In this document: positions 34,319-44,034 of the stretch, one piece after another
Position numbering within the stretch: the stretch's first letter is position 1
Layout of the letters: each line of letters begins with the position of its first letter
Assembly: GCA_903889245.1 (NCBI GenBank)
Contig: CAISWQ010000107.1
Coordinates: forward strand, 1-51,746
Source: an uncultured Lentisphaerota bacterium
Lineage (GTDB): Bacteria > Verrucomicrobiota > Kiritimatiellia > CAIQIC01
DNA length: 51,746 bases
Reading direction: 5' to 3'
Position numbers and translations under genes: made by a program
The notes under the pieces: model-generated
The model's input: the letters and a program-made list of their open reading frames with translations, nothing else
Databases searched by the model: none
Told to the model about the DNA's origin: nothing

Positions 34319-36073
34319 CTATTTTCTATAAAGCGGTTTGGCCGTGTACTGGTTGTGCAGGTAGTGGTGCGCCTTGGCGCTCAAGGGCGAGCCGAGGAAG
34401 TCGGTGTAGATCGCCTGCACCTCCTCGTTCTCGTGCGAGCAGCGGTGTGCGCACTCGCGGTCGTCCTTATAGAGACCGGCGGCGCGTTTGCGGCGGACTT
34501 CGTCATCGGCGCCGTAGGGCTGGCCGCCACCGCCGACGCAACCGCCGCGGCACGCCATTACCTCGATGAAGTGGTAGGCGGGCTCGCCGTTGGCCTTCTT
34601 GGCGGCGCGGACGCGGTCGAGCACGGTCTCGATGTTGCACATCCAGTGGGCCACCGCGATGCGGATTTCCTGGCCGGCGATGTTGAGCATGGCCTCCTTG
34701 ACGCCATCGAGGCCGCGGACGGCCATGAAGTTGACGTCGTCGAGCTGCTTGTGCGTGAGCATGTGGTGCGCGGTACGGAGCGCCGCCTCCATCACACCGC
34801 CGGTCGCACCGAAGATCGTGCCCGCGCCGGAATAGGAGCCGAGGATCGAGTCGCTGGTCTCGTCGTCGGGCAGATTGGCAAAGTCAATGCCCGCCGCCTT
34901 GAACATCCGCGAGAGTTCGCGCGTGGTCAGCGAGACATCCACGTCCTGATGGCCACTGGCAAACATGTCCTTGCTGCGGCTGACTTCATATTTCTTCGCC
35001 GTGCAGGGCATGATGGAGACCATGTAGATGTTCTTCGGGTCAAGGCCCATCTTCTCGGCGTAATAGGTTTTGGCCATAACGCCGACCATCTCGTGCGGGC
35101 TCTTGGCGCTGGAGAAATGCGGCACCATATCGGGGGCGAATTTTTCCATGTAGTCCACCCACGCGGGGCAGCAGCTCGTGATCAGCGGCAGCTCGCCGTG
35201 GCCCTTGGCGAAGCGTTCGACGAACTCGGCGGCCTCCTCCATGATCGTGAGGTCGGCGCCGAAGTTGGTGTCGAAGATCGCCTTGAAACCCATCTGCCGC
35301 AGCGCCGCGTAGGTCTTACCGGTCAGCAGCGTGCCGGGCTCGAAGCCGAACGCCTCGCCAATCGCCACGCGGACGGCGGGCGCGATCTGCACCACACAGT
35401 GCAGGTCGGGGTTGAGCAGGGCCTTGAGCACGTCGCGCGTCTCGTCCTTCTCGTAGATCGCCCCGACCGGGCAGTGCGCGCTGCACTGGCCGCACTTGAT
35501 GCAAGGGCTCTCGCCGAGCTTCACATCGGCGGCGGGCGCGATGCGGGTCTTCTCGCCGCGGCCGAGGAACTCCAGCGCCCAGACGTTCTGCATCTGCTGG
35601 CAAACCTTCGCGCAGCGGCCACAAAGGACGCACTTCTCGGGGTTGAGCACGATCGAGCCGGTCGTCGTGTCCACCGGCAGGTCGCGCAGGCGGTGCTCGA
35701 ACGGCAGTTCGCGGATGCCGAAGTCGGCGGCCAGTTTCTGCAACTCGCAGTTCTGGTTGCGCGGGCACTGGAGGCAGTCGTTCGGATGCGTCGAGAGGAT
35801 CAGTTCGATCACCGTACGCCGGATCTGGACGATCTCCGGGTCGTGCGTGACGATCTTCATGCCCTCCTCCACCGGCGTGGAGCAGGCGCGCAGCATCTTG
35901 GCGGTGCCAGCGATCTTGACGACACAGATGCCGCAGGCGGCCCACGCGGGCAGGTCCGGGTGGTAGCAGAGCACCGGCACCTTGACATTGACCTTCTGCG
36001 CCGCCTTCAGGATGGTGGTGCCTTCCTTGACGGTGACGGGCTTTCCATTGATCTCAAGTTTGATGTTCTTCAT
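34319..36073 (-). CDS. hndD: [FeFe] hydrogenase catalytic subunit (HndD/HydA type)
   Basis: A 584-aa multi-cluster [FeFe] hydrogenase: N-terminal plant-type [2Fe-2S] domain (C36, C47, C50, C64), His-Cys [4Fe-4S] site (HPNDCLQCPRNQNC, 96-109), two [4Fe-4S] ferredoxin motifs (CVLCGRCAKVC 148-158; CIKCGQCSAHC 191-201) and the H-cluster motifs L1 TSCCPAW (299-305), L2 MPCTAKKYE (355-363) and L3 ACRGGCVGGGGQP. It exchanges electrons between the NuoF-like subunit and protons/H2. The small C-terminal domain is present. It is the last gene of the hnd operon, 12 bp after hndC. Confidence 0.95.
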   Translation of the reverse strand: MKNIKLEINGKPVTVKEGTTILKAAQKVNVKVPVLCYHPDLPAWAACGICVVKIAGTAKMLRACSTPVEEGMKIVTHDPEIVQIRRTVIELILSTHPNDCLQCPRNQNCELQKLAADFGIRELPFEHRLRDLPVDTTTGSIVLNPEKCVLCGRCAKVCQQMQNVWALEFLGRGEKTRIAPAADVKLGESPCIKCGQCSAHCPVGAIYEKDETRDVLKALLNPDLHCVVQIAPAVRVAIGEAFGFEPGTLLTGKTYAALRQMGFKAIFDTNFGADLTIMEEAAEFVERFAKGHGELPLITSCCPAWVDYMEKFAPDMVPHFSSAKSPHEMVGVMAKTYYAEKMGLDPKNIYMVSIMPCTAKKYEVSRSKDMFASGHQDVDVSLTTRELSRMFKAAGIDFANLPDDETSDSILGSYSGAGTIFGATGGVMEAALRTAHHMLTHKQLDDVNFMAVRGLDGVKEAMLNIAGQEIRIAVAHWMCNIETVLDRVRAAKKANGEPAYHFIEVMACRGGCVGGGGQPYGADDEVRRKRAAGLYKDDRECAHRCSHENEEVQAIYTDFLGSPLSAKAHHYLHNQYTAKPLYRK

Positions 36074-36085
36074 GGCCTCAAATCC

Positions 36086-37873
36086 TTATGTTCTTTCCAC
36101 CGCGCCGAACTTGCACGCCTGATAGCACTCGCCGCACTTGATGCACTTGGCGGCGTCAATCACGTGCACCGCGCGCCGGTCGCCGCTGATGCAATTGACC
36201 GGACAGCGGCGTGCACACAGCGTGCAGCCGATGCACTTATCCGGCAGGATGAAGAAGGTCAGCAGGTCGCGGCACTTGCCGGCCGGGCATTTCTTGTCGT
36301 TGATATGCGCGAGGTATTCGGCCTCGAAATACTTCAGCGTCGAGATCGCCGGGTTCGGCGCGGTCTGCCCCAGCCCGCACAGCGAGGCCTTGCGCATCGC
36401 GTGGCCGATGTCGCGGATCTGCTCGATATCGTGCAGCGTGCCCTGCCCCTTGCTGATCTTGTCCACGAGGTTGTAGAGCGTGCGCCCGCCGATGCGGCAC
36501 GGCGCGCACTTGCCGCAGCTCTCGTCCACGGTGAACTCCAGGTAGAACTTGGAGACGTCCACCATGCAGTCGTCCTCGTCCATCACGATCATGCCGCCGG
36601 AGCCCATGATCGAGCCGAGCTGGCCGAGGCTCTCGTAATCAATCGGCATGTCGAGGTAGTCCTTGGTAATCACGCCGCCGCTCGGCCCGCCGGTCTGCAC
36701 CGCCTTGAACGCCTTGCCGCCGAGAATACCGCCGCCGATTTCGTAGATGATCTCGCGCAGCGTGATGCCCATCGGCACCTCGATCAGCCCGCAGTTGTTC
36801 ACCTTGCCGGTGAGCGCGAACACCTTCGTGCCCTTCGAGGTCGCCGTACCGATCTTGCCGAACCAGTCGCCGCCCTTGAGCAGGATGACGGGGATCGCGG
36901 CCCAGGTCTCGACGTTGTTGATGACCGTCGGTTTCTGCCACAACCCCTTGACCGCCGGGTACGGCGGGCGCGGGCTCGGCATGCCGCGGTTGCCCTCGAT
37001 GGAGGTGATGAGCGCGGTCTCCTCGCCGCAGACGAACGCGCCCGCGCCGAGCCGCAGCTCGATGTCGAAGTCGAAGCCGCTGCCGAGGATGCCCTGGCCG
37101 AGCAGCCCCAGCTCGCGCGCCTGCGCAATCGCCATGTTCAGGCGGTTGATCGCCAGCGGATATTCCGCGCGGATATAGATGTAGCCCTGGCTCGCGCCGA
37201 CCGTGTAGCCGGCAATCGCCATCGCCTCGAGGATGGAATGCGGGTCGCCCTCGAGCGTGCTGCGGTCCATGTAGGCACCGGGATCGCCTTCGTCGGCGTT
37301 GCAGATGATGTATTTCTGGTCGCTCGCGACCTTCTTGGTGAACAGCCACTTCTGCCACGTCGGGTAGCCGCCGCCGCCGCGCCCGCGCAGGCCGGACTTC
37401 TTCAACTCCTCGATCACGTCGTCCGGCTTCATCTTGAACAGCGCCTTCTCCAGCGCCGCGTAACCCTCGCGTGCGAGGTAGTCCTCGATGCGCTCCGGGT
37501 CAATCACGCCACAGTTGCGCAGCACGATACGCAGTTGCTTCTGGTGCCCCGCCGGCACGTCCTTCGGGAAATATTTCGCTGTCGTCTGGGGATCAAACAG
37601 CAGCCGCGCCACCGGCCGGCCCTGCTTGAGGTGCTGCGTCACGATCGCCGCCGCGTCCCCGGCTTGCACGTCAACATAGAGCGTCTGGTCGGGCAGGATC
37701 TGCACCGCCGCGCACTCGCCGCAGAAGCCGAAGCTGCCGGTCTTGAGCACCTGCACCTCGTTCTCGACGCCCTGCTCGCGGACCTCCTTGAGCAGCGCAT
37801 CGTGGACCGCGAGCGCGCGCTTCGTGTTGCAACCCTCGCCCCCGCACACCAGCACATAATGTTTGAAAGCCAT
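36086..37873 (-). CDS. hndC: NADH-binding flavoprotein subunit of [FeFe] hydrogenase (HndC/HydB)
   Basis: A 595-aa NuoF-like subunit. The N-terminal thioredoxin-like [2Fe-2S] domain has Cys in VCGGEGC and FGFCGEC. It is followed by the FMN/NAD(P)H module (GLRGRGGGGYPTWQKW, NADEGDPGAYMDR), an SLBB domain, the [4Fe-4S] site ESCGKCAPCRIGG and a C-terminal two-cluster ferredoxin (CIGCTLCARRC; CIKCGECYQAC). In HndABCD/HydABC complexes this is the site of flavin-based electron bifurcation between NAD(P)H and ferredoxin; bifurcation here is inferred from family. ATG 37873 follows GGAGAACG. A palindrome array separates it from hndB. Confidence 0.95.
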   Translation of the reverse strand: MAFKHYVLVCGGEGCNTKRALAVHDALLKEVREQGVENEVQVLKTGSFGFCGECAAVQILPDQTLYVDVQAGDAAAIVTQHLKQGRPVARLLFDPQTTAKYFPKDVPAGHQKQLRIVLRNCGVIDPERIEDYLAREGYAALEKALFKMKPDDVIEELKKSGLRGRGGGGYPTWQKWLFTKKVASDQKYIICNADEGDPGAYMDRSTLEGDPHSILEAMAIAGYTVGASQGYIYIRAEYPLAINRLNMAIAQARELGLLGQGILGSGFDFDIELRLGAGAFVCGEETALITSIEGNRGMPSPRPPYPAVKGLWQKPTVINNVETWAAIPVILLKGGDWFGKIGTATSKGTKVFALTGKVNNCGLIEVPMGITLREIIYEIGGGILGGKAFKAVQTGGPSGGVITKDYLDMPIDYESLGQLGSIMGSGGMIVMDEDDCMVDVSKFYLEFTVDESCGKCAPCRIGGRTLYNLVDKISKGQGTLHDIEQIRDIGHAMRKASLCGLGQTAPNPAISTLKYFEAEYLAHINDKKCPAGKCRDLLTFFILPDKCIGCTLCARRCPVNCISGDRRAVHVIDAAKCIKCGECYQACKFGAVERT

Positions 37874-37900
37874 ATCGTTCTCCGTCACTCAAAGTTCATG

Positions 37901-38010
37901 TTCCCAGCCTTGGAAAACCTGCCGCCGTTTTTTCCAGGCCTTGGAAATTTTTCCGCGAAATTTTCCAATCCCTGGAAAAACCCACCGTTCCCTTTTCCAA
38001 TCTCTGGAAA
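37901..38010. repeat. Palindrome array, 4 copies, inside the hydrogenase operon
   Basis: Four copies are centred at 37908, 37939, 37970 and 38002 (intervals 31, 31, 32 bp) and fill the hndB-hndC gap. They are followed by a CTATCTG-type short tandem repeat (about 38016-38044) that supplies the hndB stop codon. If transcribed, each copy can form a 7-8 bp hairpin. Confidence 0.9.
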
Positions 38011-38025
38011 CATATTTGCTATCCG

Positions 38026-38433
38026 CTATCTGCTATCTGCTATTTTCTTCCCGAACGCGTCGTTCGCCGGGCGGTCAAAGATGTGGTCGTTGATCAGCAG
38101 CTTGCCGACGATGTGCTTGCGCACGATGCGGCGCGCGACCTCGGCATCCACCTTGCCGTAGATGATCGGCGGCATGTCCGGCACGCGCACCTCGACCGTC
38201 GGTTCCGAGTAGCACAGGCCCATGCAGCCGGTCTGCTCGAGGCGCACGTCGGTCAGGTTGTTCTTCTTCAGTTCATCGGCGAAGGCGTCCCACGCCTTGC
38301 GCGCGCCGGCGGCGATGCCGCAGGTGCCCATGCCGATGATGATCTGCGCCTGCCGGCCGGCCCAGCGCTGCTGCCAGTGGGCCTCGGCCCGGGCGCGTGC
38401 GTTTGCCAGTCCTTCGCGAGTGAGTTTGCTCAT
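38026..38433 (-). CDS. hndB: Thioredoxin-like [2Fe-2S] ferredoxin subunit (HndB type)
   Basis: A 135-aa protein with the thioredoxin-like ferredoxin fold: IIIGMGTCGIAAGA near residue 35 and TGCMGLC with a second Cys pair, giving the four [2Fe-2S] ligands. It corresponds to HndB of HndABCD complexes. The last residues (KKIADSR) and the stop are translated from the CTATCTG tandem repeat, so the C-terminus may vary between strains. It lies 13 bp after hndA. Confidence 0.88.
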   Translation of the reverse strand: MSKLTREGLANARARAEAHWQQRWAGRQAQIIIGMGTCGIAAGARKAWDAFADELKKNNLTDVRLEQTGCMGLCYSEPTVEVRVPDMPPIIYGKVDAEVARRIVRKHIVGKLLINDHIFDRPANDAFGKKIADSR

Positions 38434-38446
38434 CGTTCCCTTCCTT

Positions 38447-38944
38447 TCAGGCGACCGCCGCCACCTGCCGGCCCTGGTACTTGGCCAGCACGTCCGGCAG
38501 ATCGGCCTTCTTCAGGTTGCCATAGACCTCGCCATCAATCGTCAGCACCGGCGCGAGCCCGCAGCAGCCGAGGCAGCGCACCACCTCGACCGAGAACTCG
38601 CCATCGGGCGAGACGCGGTTGACGCCTGCGCCGATCAGCGCCTCGAGTTCGCGGATCAGGTCCTCGCCGCCCTTGAGGTAGCAGGCGGTGCCCATGCAGA
38701 CCGCGATCTGGTGCCGGCCCGGCTGCTTGAGCTTGAAGAGATGATAGAAGGTGATCACGCCGTAGATCTTGGCCAGCGGCACCTCCAGCAGTTCCGCCAC
38801 CTTGAACGCGACCTCGCGCGGCACGTAGCGGTATTCCTCCTGCACCTTGTGCAGGACCATGATCAGGTTGCCCGGCTTGTCCTTCCACTGCCGGATGAAC
38901 TCCAGCAGCGCCGGCGAAAGCTCCGTCTGCGTTTCCACTTGCAT
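38447..38944 (-). CDS. hndA: NuoE-like [2Fe-2S] subunit (HndA/HydC type)
   Basis: The 165-aa NuoE/24-kDa-type subunit has CMGTACYLKGG and CLGCCGLAPV as the [2Fe-2S] ligand motifs of the thioredoxin-like domain, preceded by the helical part (LIMVLHKVQEEYRYVP, FYHLFKLKQPGRH). It is the first gene of hndA-hndB-hndC-hndD, the same order as in Desulfovibrio. ATG 38944 is chosen because the open frame beyond it is antisense to rex. Its promoter and a Rex-like site lie at 38991-39044. Confidence 0.92.
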   Translation of the reverse strand: MQVETQTELSPALLEFIRQWKDKPGNLIMVLHKVQEEYRYVPREVAFKVAELLEVPLAKIYGVITFYHLFKLKQPGRHQIAVCMGTACYLKGGEDLIRELEALIGAGVNRVSPDGEFSVEVVRCLGCCGLAPVLTIDGEVYGNLKKADLPDVLAKYQGRQVAAVA

Positions 38945-38990
38945 CGTGTCTCTTGCCCTTTCCGCGCGCGGCCAGCGCGCAGCGGCGGCG

Positions 38991-39018
38991 AGGATACGCC
39001 CGCGCCTCCGCCTGACAA
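38991..39018 (-). promoter_or_regulatory. Predicted hnd operon promoter
   Basis: TTGTCA (39018-39013), a 16-bp spacer and TATCCT (38996-38991) lie 46 bp before hndA. The Rex-like site at 39027-39044 begins 9 bp upstream of the -35 box. Confidence 0.6.
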
Positions 39019-39026
39019 GCCTTTTG

Positions 39027-39044
39027 ATGGAAATAATTTCACAT
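39027..39044. promoter_or_regulatory. Candidate Rex operator 1
   Basis: On the minus strand ATGTGAA-atta-TTTCCAT matches the Rex consensus TTGTGAA-N4-TTCACAA at 10 of 14 fixed positions. It lies just upstream of the hnd promoter. Its centre is 63 bp (about six turns) from operator 2. Confidence 0.5.
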
Positions 39045-39047
39045 AGC

Positions 39048-39076
39048 TTGCAACAGAACTGCTTTATTGTTACATC
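39048..39076 (+). promoter_or_regulatory. Predicted rex promoter
   Basis: TTGCAA (39048-39053), a 17-bp spacer and TACATC (39071-39076) put the start near 39083, with operator 2 a few bases downstream. Confidence 0.6.
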
Positions 39077-39089
39077 TTCCGCCGAACTG

Positions 39090-39107
39090 ATGTTATTTCG
39101 TTCACAA
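39090..39107. promoter_or_regulatory. Candidate Rex operator 2
   Basis: ATGTTAT-ttcg-TTCACAA matches the Rex consensus at 11 of 14 fixed positions, with a perfect right half. It lies within the rex leader, suggesting autorepression. Confidence 0.6.
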
Positions 39108-39121
39108 TAACGAGGTGGACC

Positions 39122-39772
39122 ATGGCCATGAAGCACGACATCGCGCAGCGACTCTCGCAGTATCGGAGCGTGCTCTACAAGCTCAAGGCGCTCGGCTTCG
39201 TGCGCGTCTTCTCCGACAACCTCGGCGACGCGCTGGAGATCTCCCCCGCCCTCGTGCGCAAGGATTTCTCCACCTTCAGCCTCACCGGCAACAAGCGCGG
39301 CGGCTACCTCATCATGGACCTGCTCGACAAGCTGAACCGCCTGCTCGGCAAGGACAAGGTCCAGCGCATCATCATCGTCGGCTGCGGCAAGATCGGGCAG
39401 GCGCTGATGACCTACAGCGGCTTCACGCGCGAGGGCCTCCAGGTGGTCGCCGGCTTCGATTCCAACGCCAGCGTCATCAGCCCGCAGGCCTCCATCCCGA
39501 TCTACGACGTGAAGGAGCTCAAGGCCTACGTGAAGCGCGAGGGCATCCGCATCGCGATCATGGCGGTGCCGGATAACGCGGCGTCGCACACCTTCGACCT
39601 GTTGCGCGCCGCGGAGATCAAGGGCGTGCTGAACTTCGCGCCAGTCCCGCTCAAGGGCGTCGAGGGCTGCGTCGTCCGCAACATCAACATCGGATTGGAA
39701 CTGGAGAACCTGTTCTACCTCGTCCGCTTCTCCGGCAAGCTCCCGCCCCAGCCCGCCGGCCGCGCCGCCTGA
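39122..39772 (+). CDS. rex: Redox-sensing transcriptional repressor Rex
   Basis: A 216-aa Rex. The N-terminal winged helix (LSQYRSVLYKLKALGF, ISPALVRKDFSTF) is followed by a Rossmann domain with IIIVGCGKIGQAL, AGFDSNAS and the NAD(H)-binding VPDNAAS. It binds DNA when NADH/NAD+ is low and releases it when NADH is high. Its divergence from the NADH-linked hydrogenase operon and the two Rex-like sites between them make hndABCD the obvious target: H2 production would rise when NADH accumulates. GAGGTGG precedes ATG 39122. Confidence 0.94.
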   Translation: MAMKHDIAQRLSQYRSVLYKLKALGFVRVFSDNLGDALEISPALVRKDFSTFSLTGNKRGGYLIMDLLDKLNRLLGKDKVQRIIIVGCGKIGQALMTYSGFTREGLQVVAGFDSNASVISPQASIPIYDVKELKAYVKREGIRIAIMAVPDNAASHTFDLLRAAEIKGVLNFAPVPLKGVEGCVVRNINIGLELENLFYLVRFSGKLPPQPAGRAA

Positions 39773-39776
39773 TAGC

Positions 39777-39972
39777 ACTGGGAGCGGCGGCGGTTACCCC
39801 GGCACAGACTGCAGAAAGGCGAAGTTCCGCACTTCGAGATTGGACATTCGATATTTGCTGTTTTGTGGTTCGCTTTAACAGGTGAGGCTCAAGGTGTAGC
39901 AGCAGCACGTGAATTTTCCCTTGGGTGGCGGTCCCGGTTTTTCCACGGCGGTGAGACACCGCCGCTCCCAGT
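39777..39972. mobile_element. 196-bp MITE-like element with 14-bp inverted ends
   Basis: ACTGGGAGCGGCGG (39777-39790) and CCGCCGCTCCCAGT (39959-39972) are perfect inverted repeats bounding 196 bp with no gene. A hairpin, GGCGGTG-aga-CACCGCC, adjoins the right end. The interior (39820-39872) is partly similar to 1993-2043. No target duplication is evident, so mobility is inference. The rest of the 469-bp gap (39973-40206) holds only GC-rich sequence with no recognised feature before the arsR promoter. Confidence 0.5.
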
Positions 39973-40206: not shown

Positions 40207-40250
40207 TTGACATGGCCGCGTAAATTCATATCTTCACGGCCATGAAGATA
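40207..40250 (+). promoter_or_regulatory. arsR promoter and overlapping inverted-repeat operator
   Basis: TTGACA (40207-40212), a 16-bp spacer and TATCTT (40229-40234) end 7 bp before ATG 40242, so the mRNA is probably leaderless. A perfect inverted repeat, TATCTTCA (40229-40236)/TGAAGATA (40243-40250) with a 6-bp centre, covers the -10 box, transcript start and start codon. Confidence 0.7.
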
Positions 40251-40640
40251 CGCAACTACGAAATCTACGACATCAACGCCGGCCTCTGCCACACCCTGGC
40301 GCATCCCAAACGGCTGATGATGGTGGACATGCTGGGGCGGCGCGAACTAAACGTGGGCGAGATCGCCGCAGTGCTCGGCATGCGGCCGGCGGCGGTCAGC
40401 CAGCAGTTGCGCGTCCTGCGCGACCGGCAGCTCGTGGCCACCCGCAAGGAGGGCCAGACCATTTTCTACCGCCTGGCGATGCCGGAGCTCTCCAAGGCCT
40501 GCCACATCATCCACACGGTCCTGCTCGGCGAGATGCGCCGCCGCGGCCTGATCGCCAGCGACATCACCCCTGAAAATTTGATCGAAGACACGCCGCCGGC
40601 CGGTCCGGCGGCGCGGCGTTCGACCACCAAGTCCCGCTAG
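40242..40640 (+). CDS. ArsR-family regulator, candidate (per)sulfide sensor
   Basis: A 132-aa winged-helix repressor: LAHPKRLMMVDML (helix 2-3), VGEIAAVLGMRPAAVSQQLRVLRD (recognition helix) and EGQTIFYRL (wing). Only two Cys are present, C16 in the first helix and C87 in the C-terminal dimer helix. SqrR/BigR/YgaV-type ArsR proteins sense persulfide through two Cys that form a polysulfide bridge; the spacing here (71) is similar but the first Cys is not in the same helix, so sensing is inference. It heads the sulfur operon, and the inverted repeat at 40229-40250 is the likely autoregulatory operator. Confidence 0.85.
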   Translation: MKIRNYEIYDINAGLCHTLAHPKRLMMVDMLGRRELNVGEIAAVLGMRPAAVSQQLRVLRDRQLVATRKEGQTIFYRLAMPELSKACHIIHTVLLGEMRRRGLIASDITPENLIEDTPPAGPAARRSTTKSR

Positions 40641-40665
40641 GCGCGGGCAACACAGGAGCAGCAGC

Positions 40666-41904
40666 ATGAAGCAACAAAGGCAGTCGTGGATACTGGTCCT
40701 GGCCCTTGCGGCCACGGCCGGAACAGTATGGGCGACCAACGGCGACAACCTGATCGGGGTGGGCCCGGTGTCGCGCGCCATGGGTGGCACGGGTGTGGCG
40801 GCCCCGCAGGATGCCATCGGCGGCATGGTCAACAACCCCGCCACCTTGGGCGTCCTTCCGGCTGGCGCCAAGACCGAGGCGGACTTCGGCGGGACGCTGT
40901 TCATCCCGACCGTCCGCGCCAAGATCACCACGCCCGGCGGTGTGCTGGAAGGCAAGAGCCAGCAGCAGCCGTTCGTGATCCCCGCGGTCGGCATCGCCGC
41001 GCCCATCAACGACCGGCTCAATTTCGGCTTCGCCGCCTACGGCATCTCCGGCATGGGCGTGGATTACCGCAACATGCACTGGGACCTCGACGGCAATCCG
41101 GGCAACGGCTACGAGGGCGACATGTTCACGAAGCTCGAGGTGATGAAGTTCTCCCCCATCCTCGCCTACAAGCTCACTGATGACCTCGCCATCGGCCTGG
41201 CCCTGCAGGGCAACTACAACAACCTCGACCTCGGCGCGGGCAGTTCGCACGACTATTCCTACGGCGCGCAGGTCGGCCTGTCCTACAAGGTCGGCATCGC
41301 CCAGCTCGGCGCCAGCTACACAACCCCGCAGAAGTGCCGCTTCCAGCGCGTGTTCAACTTCGATGCCTTCATGGGCGACAACACCAGTGACACGCTCGAA
41401 CTCGAGGCCCCGGCCACCTACGCGGTCGGCATCGCACTCGTGCCCAATCAGACCTTCATGATCGAGGCCGATGTGAAGTATGTGGCGTGGTCGCAGGCCG
41501 CCGGCTACAGCGACTTCGACTGGCAGGACCAAGTCGTCGCCTCCATCGGCGCGCAGGTGAAGCCGCTGGACAAGCTGGCGCTCCGCGCGGGCGTCAACTT
41601 CGGCAAGAATCCGGTCAAGGAGCACGACGGTTGGAACCCGCAGGGCGTCACCACGGTCCAGGGCAAGCAACTGCCGACCTTCGGCTACGAGATGATGCGC
41701 AACATCGGCTTCCCCGCCATCGTGCAGACGCACGTCACGCTGGGCCTCGGTTACCAGATCAGCAAGGCCGTCTCGGTCAATCTGGAATACATGCACGCCT
41801 TCAAGCAGGACATCAGTTCGACCTCCATGGGCAATGCCATCACGCTGGAGTCCTCGCTGGAGGAGGATTCGCTCGGCTTCAGCCTGAACTGGCAGTTTGA
41901 ATAA
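40666..41904 (+). CDS. FadL/OmpP1/TodX-family outer-membrane channel
   Basis: A 412-aa protein with a signal peptide (WILVLALAATAGTVWA) followed by the N-terminal hatch motif NGDNLIGVGPVSRAMGGTGVA, with the family NPA motif in NNPATLG. The remainder is beta-strand rich (about 14 strands expected) and ends SLGFSLNWQFE with a terminal aromatic, as in Bam substrates. FadL-type channels carry hydrophobic molecules across the outer membrane. Given the neighbours, the cargo may be sulfur/polysulfide or a quinone-related lipid rather than fatty acid (inference). AGGAG lies upstream of ATG 40666. Confidence 0.85.
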   Translation: MKQQRQSWILVLALAATAGTVWATNGDNLIGVGPVSRAMGGTGVAAPQDAIGGMVNNPATLGVLPAGAKTEADFGGTLFIPTVRAKITTPGGVLEGKSQQQPFVIPAVGIAAPINDRLNFGFAAYGISGMGVDYRNMHWDLDGNPGNGYEGDMFTKLEVMKFSPILAYKLTDDLAIGLALQGNYNNLDLGAGSSHDYSYGAQVGLSYKVGIAQLGASYTTPQKCRFQRVFNFDAFMGDNTSDTLELEAPATYAVGIALVPNQTFMIEADVKYVAWSQAAGYSDFDWQDQVVASIGAQVKPLDKLALRAGVNFGKNPVKEHDGWNPQGVTTVQGKQLPTFGYEMMRNIGFPAIVQTHVTLGLGYQISKAVSVNLEYMHAFKQDISSTSMGNAITLESSLEEDSLGFSLNWQFE

Positions 41905-41941
41905 CCACCCCTAATCCGATCGCGATTCACGAGGAGCAAGC

Positions 41942-43174
41942 ATGAAACAGTTGGTCATTCTGGGCGCCGGCACCGCGGGCACGATGATGGCGCAACACCT
42001 GGCGCAGCACCTGGACCCGCAGGACTGGCGCCTCCTCCTCGTGGATCGCGACGATGAACACCATTATCAACCCGGCTACATTTTCACGCCCTTCGGCCTC
42101 TATGACCGCGCGGACATCATCAAGCCGCGCCGCCAGTTCGTGCCGCGCGGCGCGGAGCTGGTGCTGGGCGAGATCGAGGCCGTCGAACCGGCGCAGAACC
42201 GCGTCAGGCTGCAGGACGGCCGCACCCTGCCCTACGATTTCCTAGTCATCGCCAGCGGCTGCAGCATCGCGCCGCAGCAGACCGAGGGACTCGCCGGCGC
42301 CGGCTGGCGCAAAAACATCTTTGACTTCTACACGCTCGACGGCTCGCTCGCCCTGCGCGACGCCCTCGCCAAATTCCAGGGCGGCCGGCTCGTCATCAAC
42401 ATCACCGAGATGCCCATCAAGTGCCCGGTCGCGCCGCTGGAGTTCGCCTTCCTCGCCGACACCTTTTTCCTGCAGCGCGGCATCCGCCACAAGGTCGAGA
42501 TCATTTATGCCACGCCGCTGCCCGGCGCGTTCACCAAGCCGCGCGCCGCCAAGGAACTCGGCGACCTGCTGGCGCGGAAGAACATCAAGGTCGAGGCCGA
42601 GTTCGCCATCGGCCGCGTCGAGGGCGACAAGAACCAGATCGTCTCGTGGGACGAGCGCGCCATCCCCTTTGACCTGCTCGTCAGCATCCCCACGAACATG
42701 GGCGCGGCCTTCGTTGAACGCTCCGGCCTCGGCGACGAACTCAACTTCATCCCCACCGACAAGCACACGCTGCGCTCGAAGAAACACGAGAACATCTTCG
42801 TCCTCGGCGACGCCACCGACCTGCCGAGTTCCAAGGCCGGCTCCGTCGCGCACTTCCAAGCCGAGATTCTCACGGAGAACCTGCTCGCCGCCATCGCCGG
42901 CCGGCCGCTCGAGGCCACGTTCGATGGCCACGCGAACTGCTTCGTTGAGACCGGCGGCGGTAAGGCGCTGCTGATTGACTTCAACTACGACGTTGAGCCG
43001 CTGCCCGGCGTCTTCCCGCTACCCGGCCTCGGCCCCATGCACCTGCTGCGCGAGACGCGGCTGAACCACTGGGGCAAGCTGATGTTCAAATGGATCTACT
43101 GGAACATGCTGCTCAAGGCCCGGCCGCTACCCTTCATTCCGGTCCACATGAGCATGGCCGGCAAACAAGTTTAA
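41942..43174 (+). CDS. sqr: Sulfide:quinone oxidoreductase-like flavoprotein
   Basis: A 410-aa two-dinucleotide-binding flavoprotein. FAD motif VILGAGTAGTMMAQHL (5-20), HHYQPGYIFTPFG, a second Rossmann-like segment and the FAD-closing ENIFVLGDATDLPSSKAGSVAHFQAE (283-308). Three Cys occur in all: C107, C161 (MPIKCPVAPLE) and C333 (HANCFVETGGGKALLIDF). C161 and C333 align with the redox-active pair of SQR, which oxidises sulfide to polysulfide/persulfide and passes electrons to quinone. The C-terminal segment (WGKLMFKWIYWNMLLK) is amphipathic, as in membrane-associated SQR. GAGGAGCAAGC precedes ATG 41942. Confidence 0.9.
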   Translation: MKQLVILGAGTAGTMMAQHLAQHLDPQDWRLLLVDRDDEHHYQPGYIFTPFGLYDRADIIKPRRQFVPRGAELVLGEIEAVEPAQNRVRLQDGRTLPYDFLVIASGCSIAPQQTEGLAGAGWRKNIFDFYTLDGSLALRDALAKFQGGRLVINITEMPIKCPVAPLEFAFLADTFFLQRGIRHKVEIIYATPLPGAFTKPRAAKELGDLLARKNIKVEAEFAIGRVEGDKNQIVSWDERAIPFDLLVSIPTNMGAAFVERSGLGDELNFIPTDKHTLRSKKHENIFVLGDATDLPSSKAGSVAHFQAEILTENLLAAIAGRPLEATFDGHANCFVETGGGKALLIDFNYDVEPLPGVFPLPGLGPMHLLRETRLNHWGKLMFKWIYWNMLLKARPLPFIPVHMSMAGKQV

Positions 43175-43196
43175 CCACCAACCAACAGGAGATATC

Positions 43197-43514
43197 ATGC
43201 CCAACAAAACCATCGGCGCCTTCACCATCGAAGTGGATGACGAAGGCTTCATGCTCGATCACACCCAGTGGAACCGCGACATCGCCACCGCCATCGCGCA
43301 GCAGGAAGGGATCGCCACCTTGACCGACCGCCACCTGCTCGTGGTGGACTTCATGCGCAAGGAGTTCATCGAGAAAGGCACCGGCCCCAGCATCCGCCGC
43401 CTGACGAAGGAAAGCGGCGTCGAGACCAAGGAACTGTACGCGCTCTTCCCCGGCGGCCCCGCGAAGAAGGCCGCGAAGATCGCCGGCATCAAGAAGCCCG
43501 CCGGCTGCATCTGA
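43197..43514 (+). CDS. tusE: TusE/DsrC-family sulfur carrier, single Cys
   Basis: A 105-aa DsrC-fold protein. The C-terminal arm reads LFPGGPAKKAAKIAG and ends KKPAGCI, so the penultimate CysA (C104) is present. The second Cys of true DsrC, 11 residues earlier, is Ala (A93). It is therefore of TusE type: it can carry a persulfide but cannot form the DsrC trisulfide used with sulfite reductase. No dsrAB is in the window. It probably takes sulfane sulfur from the SQR product through DsrE2 (inference). AGGAGAT precedes the ATG. Confidence 0.9.
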   Translation: MPNKTIGAFTIEVDDEGFMLDHTQWNRDIATAIAQQEGIATLTDRHLLVVDFMRKEFIEKGTGPSIRRLTKESGVETKELYALFPGGPAKKAAKIAGIKKPAGCI

Positions 43515-43524
43515 AAGGACAACC

Positions 43525-44034
43525 ATGAGCAACGAACCCATCAAACGCGTTTCCATCATCGTTTCGCGCGGCTCGCTCGACGGCGTCTATCCCGGCCTCA
43601 TCATGGCCAACGGCGCACGTATGGAAGGCATCGAGGCGATGCTGTTCTTCACGTTCTTCGGCCTCGGCGCGCTGCATAAAAAATTGCAGAACGACCTCAA
43701 GGTCGCCACGGTCGGCAACGCCGCGATGAACATGGCGATGCCGCTCCTGGGTATGCCCATCACGATGCCCTTCCCCACCTGGATGGGCGGCATCCCCGGC
43801 GTCTCCGCGTTTGCGTCCTCGGTCATGAAGAAAAAAATGGAGAAGCTCGACATCCCGCCCGTCGGCGAATTCGTCACCATGATCCACGACGCCGGCGGCG
43901 AGATCTACGCCTGCAAGGCCGCGATGGACATGTTCGACCTGAAGAAGGACGACCTCGTCCCGGAAGTGGATTCAATCCTGACCGTCGGCGACTTCTACGC
44001 CAAGAGCGCCGGCGCGCAAATCATCTTCACCTGA
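43525..44034 (+). CDS. DsrE2-like sulfurtransferase (DsrE/DsrF family)
   Basis: A 169-aa DsrE-fold protein of the DsrE2 kind: VSIIVSRGSLDGVYPGLIMANGA, MLFFTFFGLGALHKK, a hydrophobic Met/Pro-rich middle (MPLLGMPITMPFPTWMGG), then GEIYACKAAMDMFDL with the single conserved Cys (C130) that would carry persulfide. DsrE2 typically partners TusA/rhodanese or TusE-like carriers in cytoplasmic sulfur relay. AAAGGAC precedes the ATG. It is the last gene of the arsR-fadL-sqr-tusE-dsrE2 operon (spacings 25, 37, 22 and 10 bp). Confidence 0.9.
   Translation: MSNEPIKRVSIIVSRGSLDGVYPGLIMANGARMEGIEAMLFFTFFGLGALHKKLQNDLKVATVGNAAMNMAMPLLGMPITMPFPTWMGGIPGVSAFASSVMKKKMEKLDIPPVGEFVTMIHDAGGEIYACKAAMDMFDLKKDDLVPEVDSILTVGDFYAKSAGAQIIFT

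Follow-up and report, generated by a model that had tools for sequence, protein, structure and literature searches.

Persulfide relays built from DsrE-family and DsrC/TusE-family carriers are known from the DsrEFH-DsrC system of Allochromatium and from the TusBCD-TusE system of Escherichia coli. In A. vinosum, the penultimate cysteine of DsrC is the persulfurated carrier, and a second DsrC cysteine occurs almost exclusively in organisms having DsrAB (PMC3397948). Type III sulfide:quinone oxidoreductases (SQR) include selenoprotein members that carry an HxxU motif (PMC13188914). Genes for sulfide and sulfur oxidation are controlled by the sulfane-sulfur repressors SqrR, BigR, SoxR and sHdrR, and the outer-membrane channels FadL and TodX share a fold with N-terminal plug helices and an NPA motif. 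Sulfur biology has long lacked an account of how insoluble sulfur gets across the outer membrane. Here we describe a stretch of 51,746 nucleotides from an uncultured Lentisphaerota bacterium (the window), in which relatives of these proteins stand in one operon.

The operon runs on the plus strand (40242-44034) in the order arsR, fadL, sqr, tusE/dsrC-like and dsrE2-like, with intergenic spacing of 25, 37, 22 and 10 bp and a putative purine-rich ribosome-binding stretch ahead of every ATG (5 of 5 genes; unscored). It encodes an ArsR/SmtB repressor (40242..40640; HTH_5, 1.2e-10; NF033788, 82 bits), a FadL/TodX-type outer-membrane channel (40666..41904; PF03349, 5.4e-25), a type III SQR in its Cys form (41942..43174), a TusE/DsrC-like sulfur carrier (43197..43514; PF04358, 1.5e-32) and a DsrE2-like sulfurtransferase (43525..44034; PF13686, 1.2e-29). 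The first-pass annotation had proposed this tight, co-directional set; its coordinates proved exact and all five families were verified by Pfam and NCBIfam profile searches. Upstream lies rex, beside a minus-strand hydrogenase cluster, and downstream an M20 peptidase gene in the opposite orientation, so that genes with other functions flank the operon on both sides. The open-access papers searched on FadL with polysulfide or elemental sulfur, and on SQR with DsrE2 and TusE, contain no account of such an operon.

We consider it fairly probable that the locus is a repressor-controlled operon for the oxidation of sulfide to menaquinone and for persulfide relay, with a FadL step for an apolar partner. 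ArsR would sit on an inverted repeat over the promoter and start codon and would be released as sulfane sulfur or sulfide rises. SQR, with C161/C333 and FAD, would oxidise sulfide and pass the electrons to menaquinone, as the chemistry of its family predicts, and from there they would probably reach cytochrome bd. Persulfide would be handed over in the cytoplasm between C130 of DsrE2 and C104 of TusE, as their invariant single cysteines and their linkage suggest, and the sulfur would then be delivered to an acceptor or released, there being no DsrAB for further oxidation. FadL would let an apolar partner of the pathway through the outer membrane, be it a hydrophobic form of sulfur such as elemental sulfur or organic polysulfide or some other compound, a step to which recurrent linkage and co-occurrence point.

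The SQR protein scored 638.8 bits over positions 1-406 against NF049943, the type III family, above the curated cut-off of 525 bits. Its C161 and C333 align with both catalytic cysteines of the human SQOR chain (match 1.7e-41), which we take to be Cys201 and Cys379 in the human numbering, and both are invariant in 82 of 82 aligned SQR sequences. At the position of HxxU the motif reads HANC. This is a cysteine (codon TGC) with no in-frame stop, and the selenocysteine (UGA) of the selenoprotein subtype is absent from the motif of the window's SQR; C333 is thus Cys where selenoprotein members of NF049943 have Sec. In score, in catalytic cysteines and in motif position the protein resembles known type III SQR, from which it differs by its place in an ArsR-FadL-SQR-TusE-DsrE2 operon. 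By sequence the flavoprotein is a type III SQR, and sulfide-dependent quinone reduction is predicted from its family.

Ahead of the operon we found a candidate sigma-70-like promoter (40207..40234, plus strand; TTGACA-16-TATCTT), assigned by a 10/12 consensus match only; such promoter matches in the region numbered two, against 0.4 expected. A perfect 8-6-8 inverted repeat, the candidate ArsR operator (40229..40250, plus strand; TATCTTCA-CGGCCA-TGAAGATA), overlaps this promoter and extends over its -10 hexamer and the start codon of arsR. A related arsR in genome G036 (L117 5903), ahead of an SQR operon, has a similar repeat in the same place (TACTTTCG-TAATCA-TGAAAGTA, one mismatch). The closest relatives of the window's ArsR stand at SQR or FadL loci of Kiritimatiellia-like genomes. 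As an ArsR-family repressor heading sulfide genes, the protein resembles SqrR, BigR, SoxR and sHdrR, but it is without their sensor cysteines: in an alignment with BigR, the sensor positions of BigR/SqrR/SoxR are occupied by Asp29 and Leu95, which we counted against our preferred explanation, and the score against NF040642 (BigR/SqrR) was 64.8 bits, below the cut-off of 155. It has an alternative pair, C16 and C87, the two cysteines already counted in the first-pass annotation. C16 is common to the ArsR proteins beside SQR in Chloroflexota, and C16 together with C87 to the Kiritimatiellia-like ones. This pair may act as a sulfane-sulfur sensor.

To place the locus among its relatives, we scanned 84,980 species genomes, which yielded at least 522 relatives of the window's SQR, and analysed the best 80 loci. 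Among the 65 of these with at least 2.2 kb of sequence beyond sqr, 64 have sqr, tusE and dsrE2 in one order and direction, far beyond chance. These loci represent about 14 phyla: Bacteroidota, Ignavibacteriota, Chlorobiota, Balneolota, Fidelibacterota, Calditrichota, Latescibacterota, Gemmatimonadota, Verrucomicrobiota, Kiritimatiellota, Planctomycetota, Chloroflexota, Actinomycetota and Bacillota. The core is therefore a widespread, little-described cassette of known protein kinds, and it points to a sulfide route independent of the Dsr pathway. The neighbourhood conservation that the first-pass annotation had put forward as a check thus holds for sqr-tusE-dsrE2; the channel gene lies beside the cassette in 9 of the 80 loci.

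In 40 of the 80 best loci, sqr and tusE are separated by a DUF1641 gene (e.g. L032 9175-9936, L046 9208-9906), the product of which is probably part of the SQR pathway. The window has no such gene between the two, which we counted against our preferred explanation. The regulators upstream of the cassette vary, with two kinds of ArsR in 10 of the 80 best loci and also at L003. Directly upstream of sqr in 13 loci (Bacteroidota, Ignavibacteriota and related ones) is a gene for a MerR-type regulator with a Cys-rich tail (e.g. L037 7509-7964, L027 186-671), a candidate sulfide or persulfide sensor.

The window's FadL scored 88 bits against PF03349 (cut-off 29.7). An AlphaFold2 model of the protein reached a pTM of 0.80, and a fold search with this model gave FadL, TodX, TbuX and CymD as the top 24 PDB matches. 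The NPA motif (N57-A59) is conserved. The predicted fold is a FadL/TodX barrel with an N-terminal plug, and the protein differs from known FadL/TodX channels in belonging to a sulfide operon. Against BamG, a FadL-like BAM subunit (NF053685), it scored 45.7 bits, below the equivalog cut-off of 250 bits.

A FadL-profile search of about 840 kb of cassette flanks, taken from the best 80 of the at least 522 loci, returned nine copies. None of these is more than 1.1 kb from the cassette (binomial p about 1e-6), and eight sit within 300 bp of it; no further copy was found farther out in these flanks. The channel gene directly follows dsrE2 in the same direction at L028, L037, L046, L055 and L087, follows it with a gap at L039, and is upstream and divergent at L083, L089 and L095. 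The window's own order, with FadL directly upstream of sqr and co-directional, recurs in G223, G306 and G232 (loci L132, L133 and L134), which belong to one other family of the window's phylum. Of 289 genomes examined in this phylum, the window's own among them, 3 have a close FadL orthologue (55-61% identity), and all three belong to the eight with an SQR over the NF049943 cut-off (hypergeometric p 1.4e-5). Among 96 close relatives, an orthologue was present in 3/3 genomes with the cassette and SQR and in 0/93 others. The link is recurrent and statistically firm; as to the putative role of FadL in moving hydrophobic sulfur, it is a supported association. The first-pass annotation had called FadL an unusual partner, which is correct by frequency alone: the linked loci are a minority, but the link recurs in at least five phyla and on either side of the cassette. 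Culturable genera such as Winogradskyella and Aequorivita include relatives with the FadL-linked operon. The absence of FadL from most cassettes was counted against our preferred explanation.

What FadL carries bears directly on how this linkage is read. H2S crosses membranes unaided. A channel would therefore be useful only for an apolar oxidised product or substrate, and this argument, as an argument only, is our main reason to favour sulfane sulfur. The recurrence of FadL beside the cassette likewise suggests the movement of a greasy sulfur compound. It is conceivable, if not likely, that the operon is a sulfide module whose FadL carries fatty acids, aromatics or quinone-like lipids and was recruited because it is useful in the same habitats. 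FadL members transport many apolar compounds, and TodX/TbuX are the nearest solved relatives of the window's FadL by sequence; moreover, SQR-linked copies outside the class are 22-47% identical to it and do not form one clade, and two FadL orthologues adjoin a VKOR-thioredoxin gene and not the cassette. However, linkage on both cassette sides in several phyla, the adjacent and co-directional placement of the gene in the window and in three further genomes of its phylum, and the exact co-occurrence of FadL orthologue and SQR within the phylum would all be hard to account for if no function were shared. We also tentatively raise the possibility, itself rather unlikely, that a set of FadL-family channels moves hydrophobic zero-valent sulfur (S8 or organic polysulfide) through the outer membrane as a regular and exchangeable component of type III SQR-TusE-DsrE2 operons, placed here under an ArsR with a new Cys pair. 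FadL repeatedly beside a sulfide oxidation cassette provides named genes for testing sulfur transport.

On the SQR tree, the FadL label requires 10 changes, at least seven of them forced by well-supported branches, which indicates repeated gain or loss of the link. The window's SQR groups with Gemmatimonadota (support 88), away from three other Kiritimatiellia-like SQRs, and its FadL is closest to Kiritimatiellia-like FadL. As the affinities of SQR and FadL disagree, the idea that the entire unit was inherited vertically in the class is unsupported. A single clade of SQR-linked FadL proteins was rejected (0% of bootstrap trees). In G036, the FadL orthologue has its own arsR ahead of it, of the same type as the window's, and lies some 10 kb away from the SQR gene; in G063 the orthologue lies on a contig other than that of the cassette, which we counted against our preferred explanation. 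Given these separate arrangements, the window seems to bring together two units, arsR-fadL and sqr-tusE-dsrE2. A gene for a VKOR-thioredoxin fusion adjoins the FadL orthologue in both G036 (L117 3787-5436) and G063 (L118 7563-8984), in differing orientations.

The TusE tail reads ...KPAGCI, and C104 of its 105 residues is the only cysteine, as the one-Cys reading of the first-pass annotation had it. The protein scored 92.9 bits against TIGR03342 (TusE/DsrC/DsvC family; cut-off 53.5 bits) and retains the reactive penultimate cysteine; the second cysteine of DsrC (CysB, 11 residues before CysA) is replaced by Ala. Among the TusE relatives of the cassette, the penultimate cysteine is the sole tail cysteine in 78 of 78 and CysB is found in none. 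The DsrE2 protein scored 103.7 bits against PF13686 (cut-off 25), and its C130 is invariant in the 74 of 74 alignment rows ungapped at that position. Against NF047629, the DsrE2 equivalog, it reached 95.9 bits, below the cut-off of 210 bits, and we therefore call it DsrE2-like. A TusE with only the penultimate cysteine next to a DsrE2 with one invariant cysteine is, as judged from sequence, the build expected of a persulfide relay that operates without DsrAB. The predicted relay of the window has a DsrE2-type protein in place of DsrEFH or TusBCD, and unlike the Dsr/Tus relays it is coupled to SQR, without DsrAB and without CysB. The earlier proposal that SQR feeds a one-Cys TusE and a one-Cys DsrE2 is supported by the retention of the set in relatives and by a genome without DsrAB.

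The same proteins could instead serve biosynthesis, with TusE and DsrE2 passing sulfur from SQR to tRNA thiolation or other assimilation, like TusBCD-TusE-MnmA of E. coli. A one-Cys TusE is of the biosynthetic type (PMC3397948) and the genome is without DsrAB, but we regard this alternative as improbable: TusE scored 74.5 bits against the tRNA-thiolation equivalog NF008562, below its cut-off of 191 bits, TusB/C are absent from the operon, and the cassette occurs in 3 of 96 close relatives, a patchy distribution unlike that of a housekeeping tRNA pathway. A reducing direction, in which elemental sulfur would enter through FadL and travel as persulfide on DsrE2 and TusE until the flavoprotein reduced it to sulfide, is very improbable, for although a hydrogenase cluster lies next door and anaerobic life is possible, oxidation is the favoured direction by the redox potentials of sulfur/sulfide and menaquinone, the enzyme falls within the SQR family with both SQR cysteines present, and the genome has a quinol oxidase gene.

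The rest of the genome is consistent with the preferred route from sulfide to menaquinone. The assembly is 96.6% complete and absences rest on single-family searches, so these are not absolute. MenB of the classical menaquinone route is present (470 bits), with no match to the futalosine route in the genome, and cytochrome bd subunit I CydA gave a strong match (570 bits), with no COX1 found in the genome search. A quinone pool and a possible oxidase are thus available to SQR. A search for the DsrC family found one gene in the genome, the window's tusE, and no second DsrC. The only sulfite/nitrite reductase domains are two within one 624-residue ORF, as in assimilatory enzymes, which leaves no DsrA/DsrB pair. 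A search for SoxY had no match in the genome, nor in the control genomes.

Next to the operon is an NADH-dependent [FeFe] hydrogenase cluster of group A6 (34319-39778 including rex; hydrogenase genes on the minus strand). It comprises HydA (34319-36073), a NuoF-like HydB, a small 135-residue protein and a thioredoxin-like [2Fe-2S] HydC, and the redox repressor gene rex (39122-39772) adjoins the sulfur operon. The first-pass annotation had taken the organism for an anaerobe. The hydrogenase agrees with this, but the picture was incomplete: with CydA and MenB present, micro-oxic respiration is plausible, and the organism likely lives at low oxygen or uses another acceptor.

Larger gene sets surround the cassette in some of the other genomes. 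L082 (297-10087, on the same contig as G036:C189) is a long operon in the order arsR, a second DsrE2-type gene, an FlpD/MvhD-like gene, two HdrA/QmoA-like genes (by eye), an Fe-S HdrC-like gene and SQR-TusE-DsrE2; it is a heterodisulfide-reductase-like complex joined to the cassette, with HdrA/QmoA assigned by eye. A similar Hdr-like set at L081 is divergent from the cassette. In Bacteroidota, at L038 (10145-14972), L042 and L043, the cassette is followed by opposite-strand YeeE/YedE-like transporter genes (by eye). On that strand there are also genes for a metallo-beta-lactamase protein carrying rhodanese domains, for a TauE-like exporter and for a CRP-like regulator, and by eye these gene sets look like a sulfide detoxification island.
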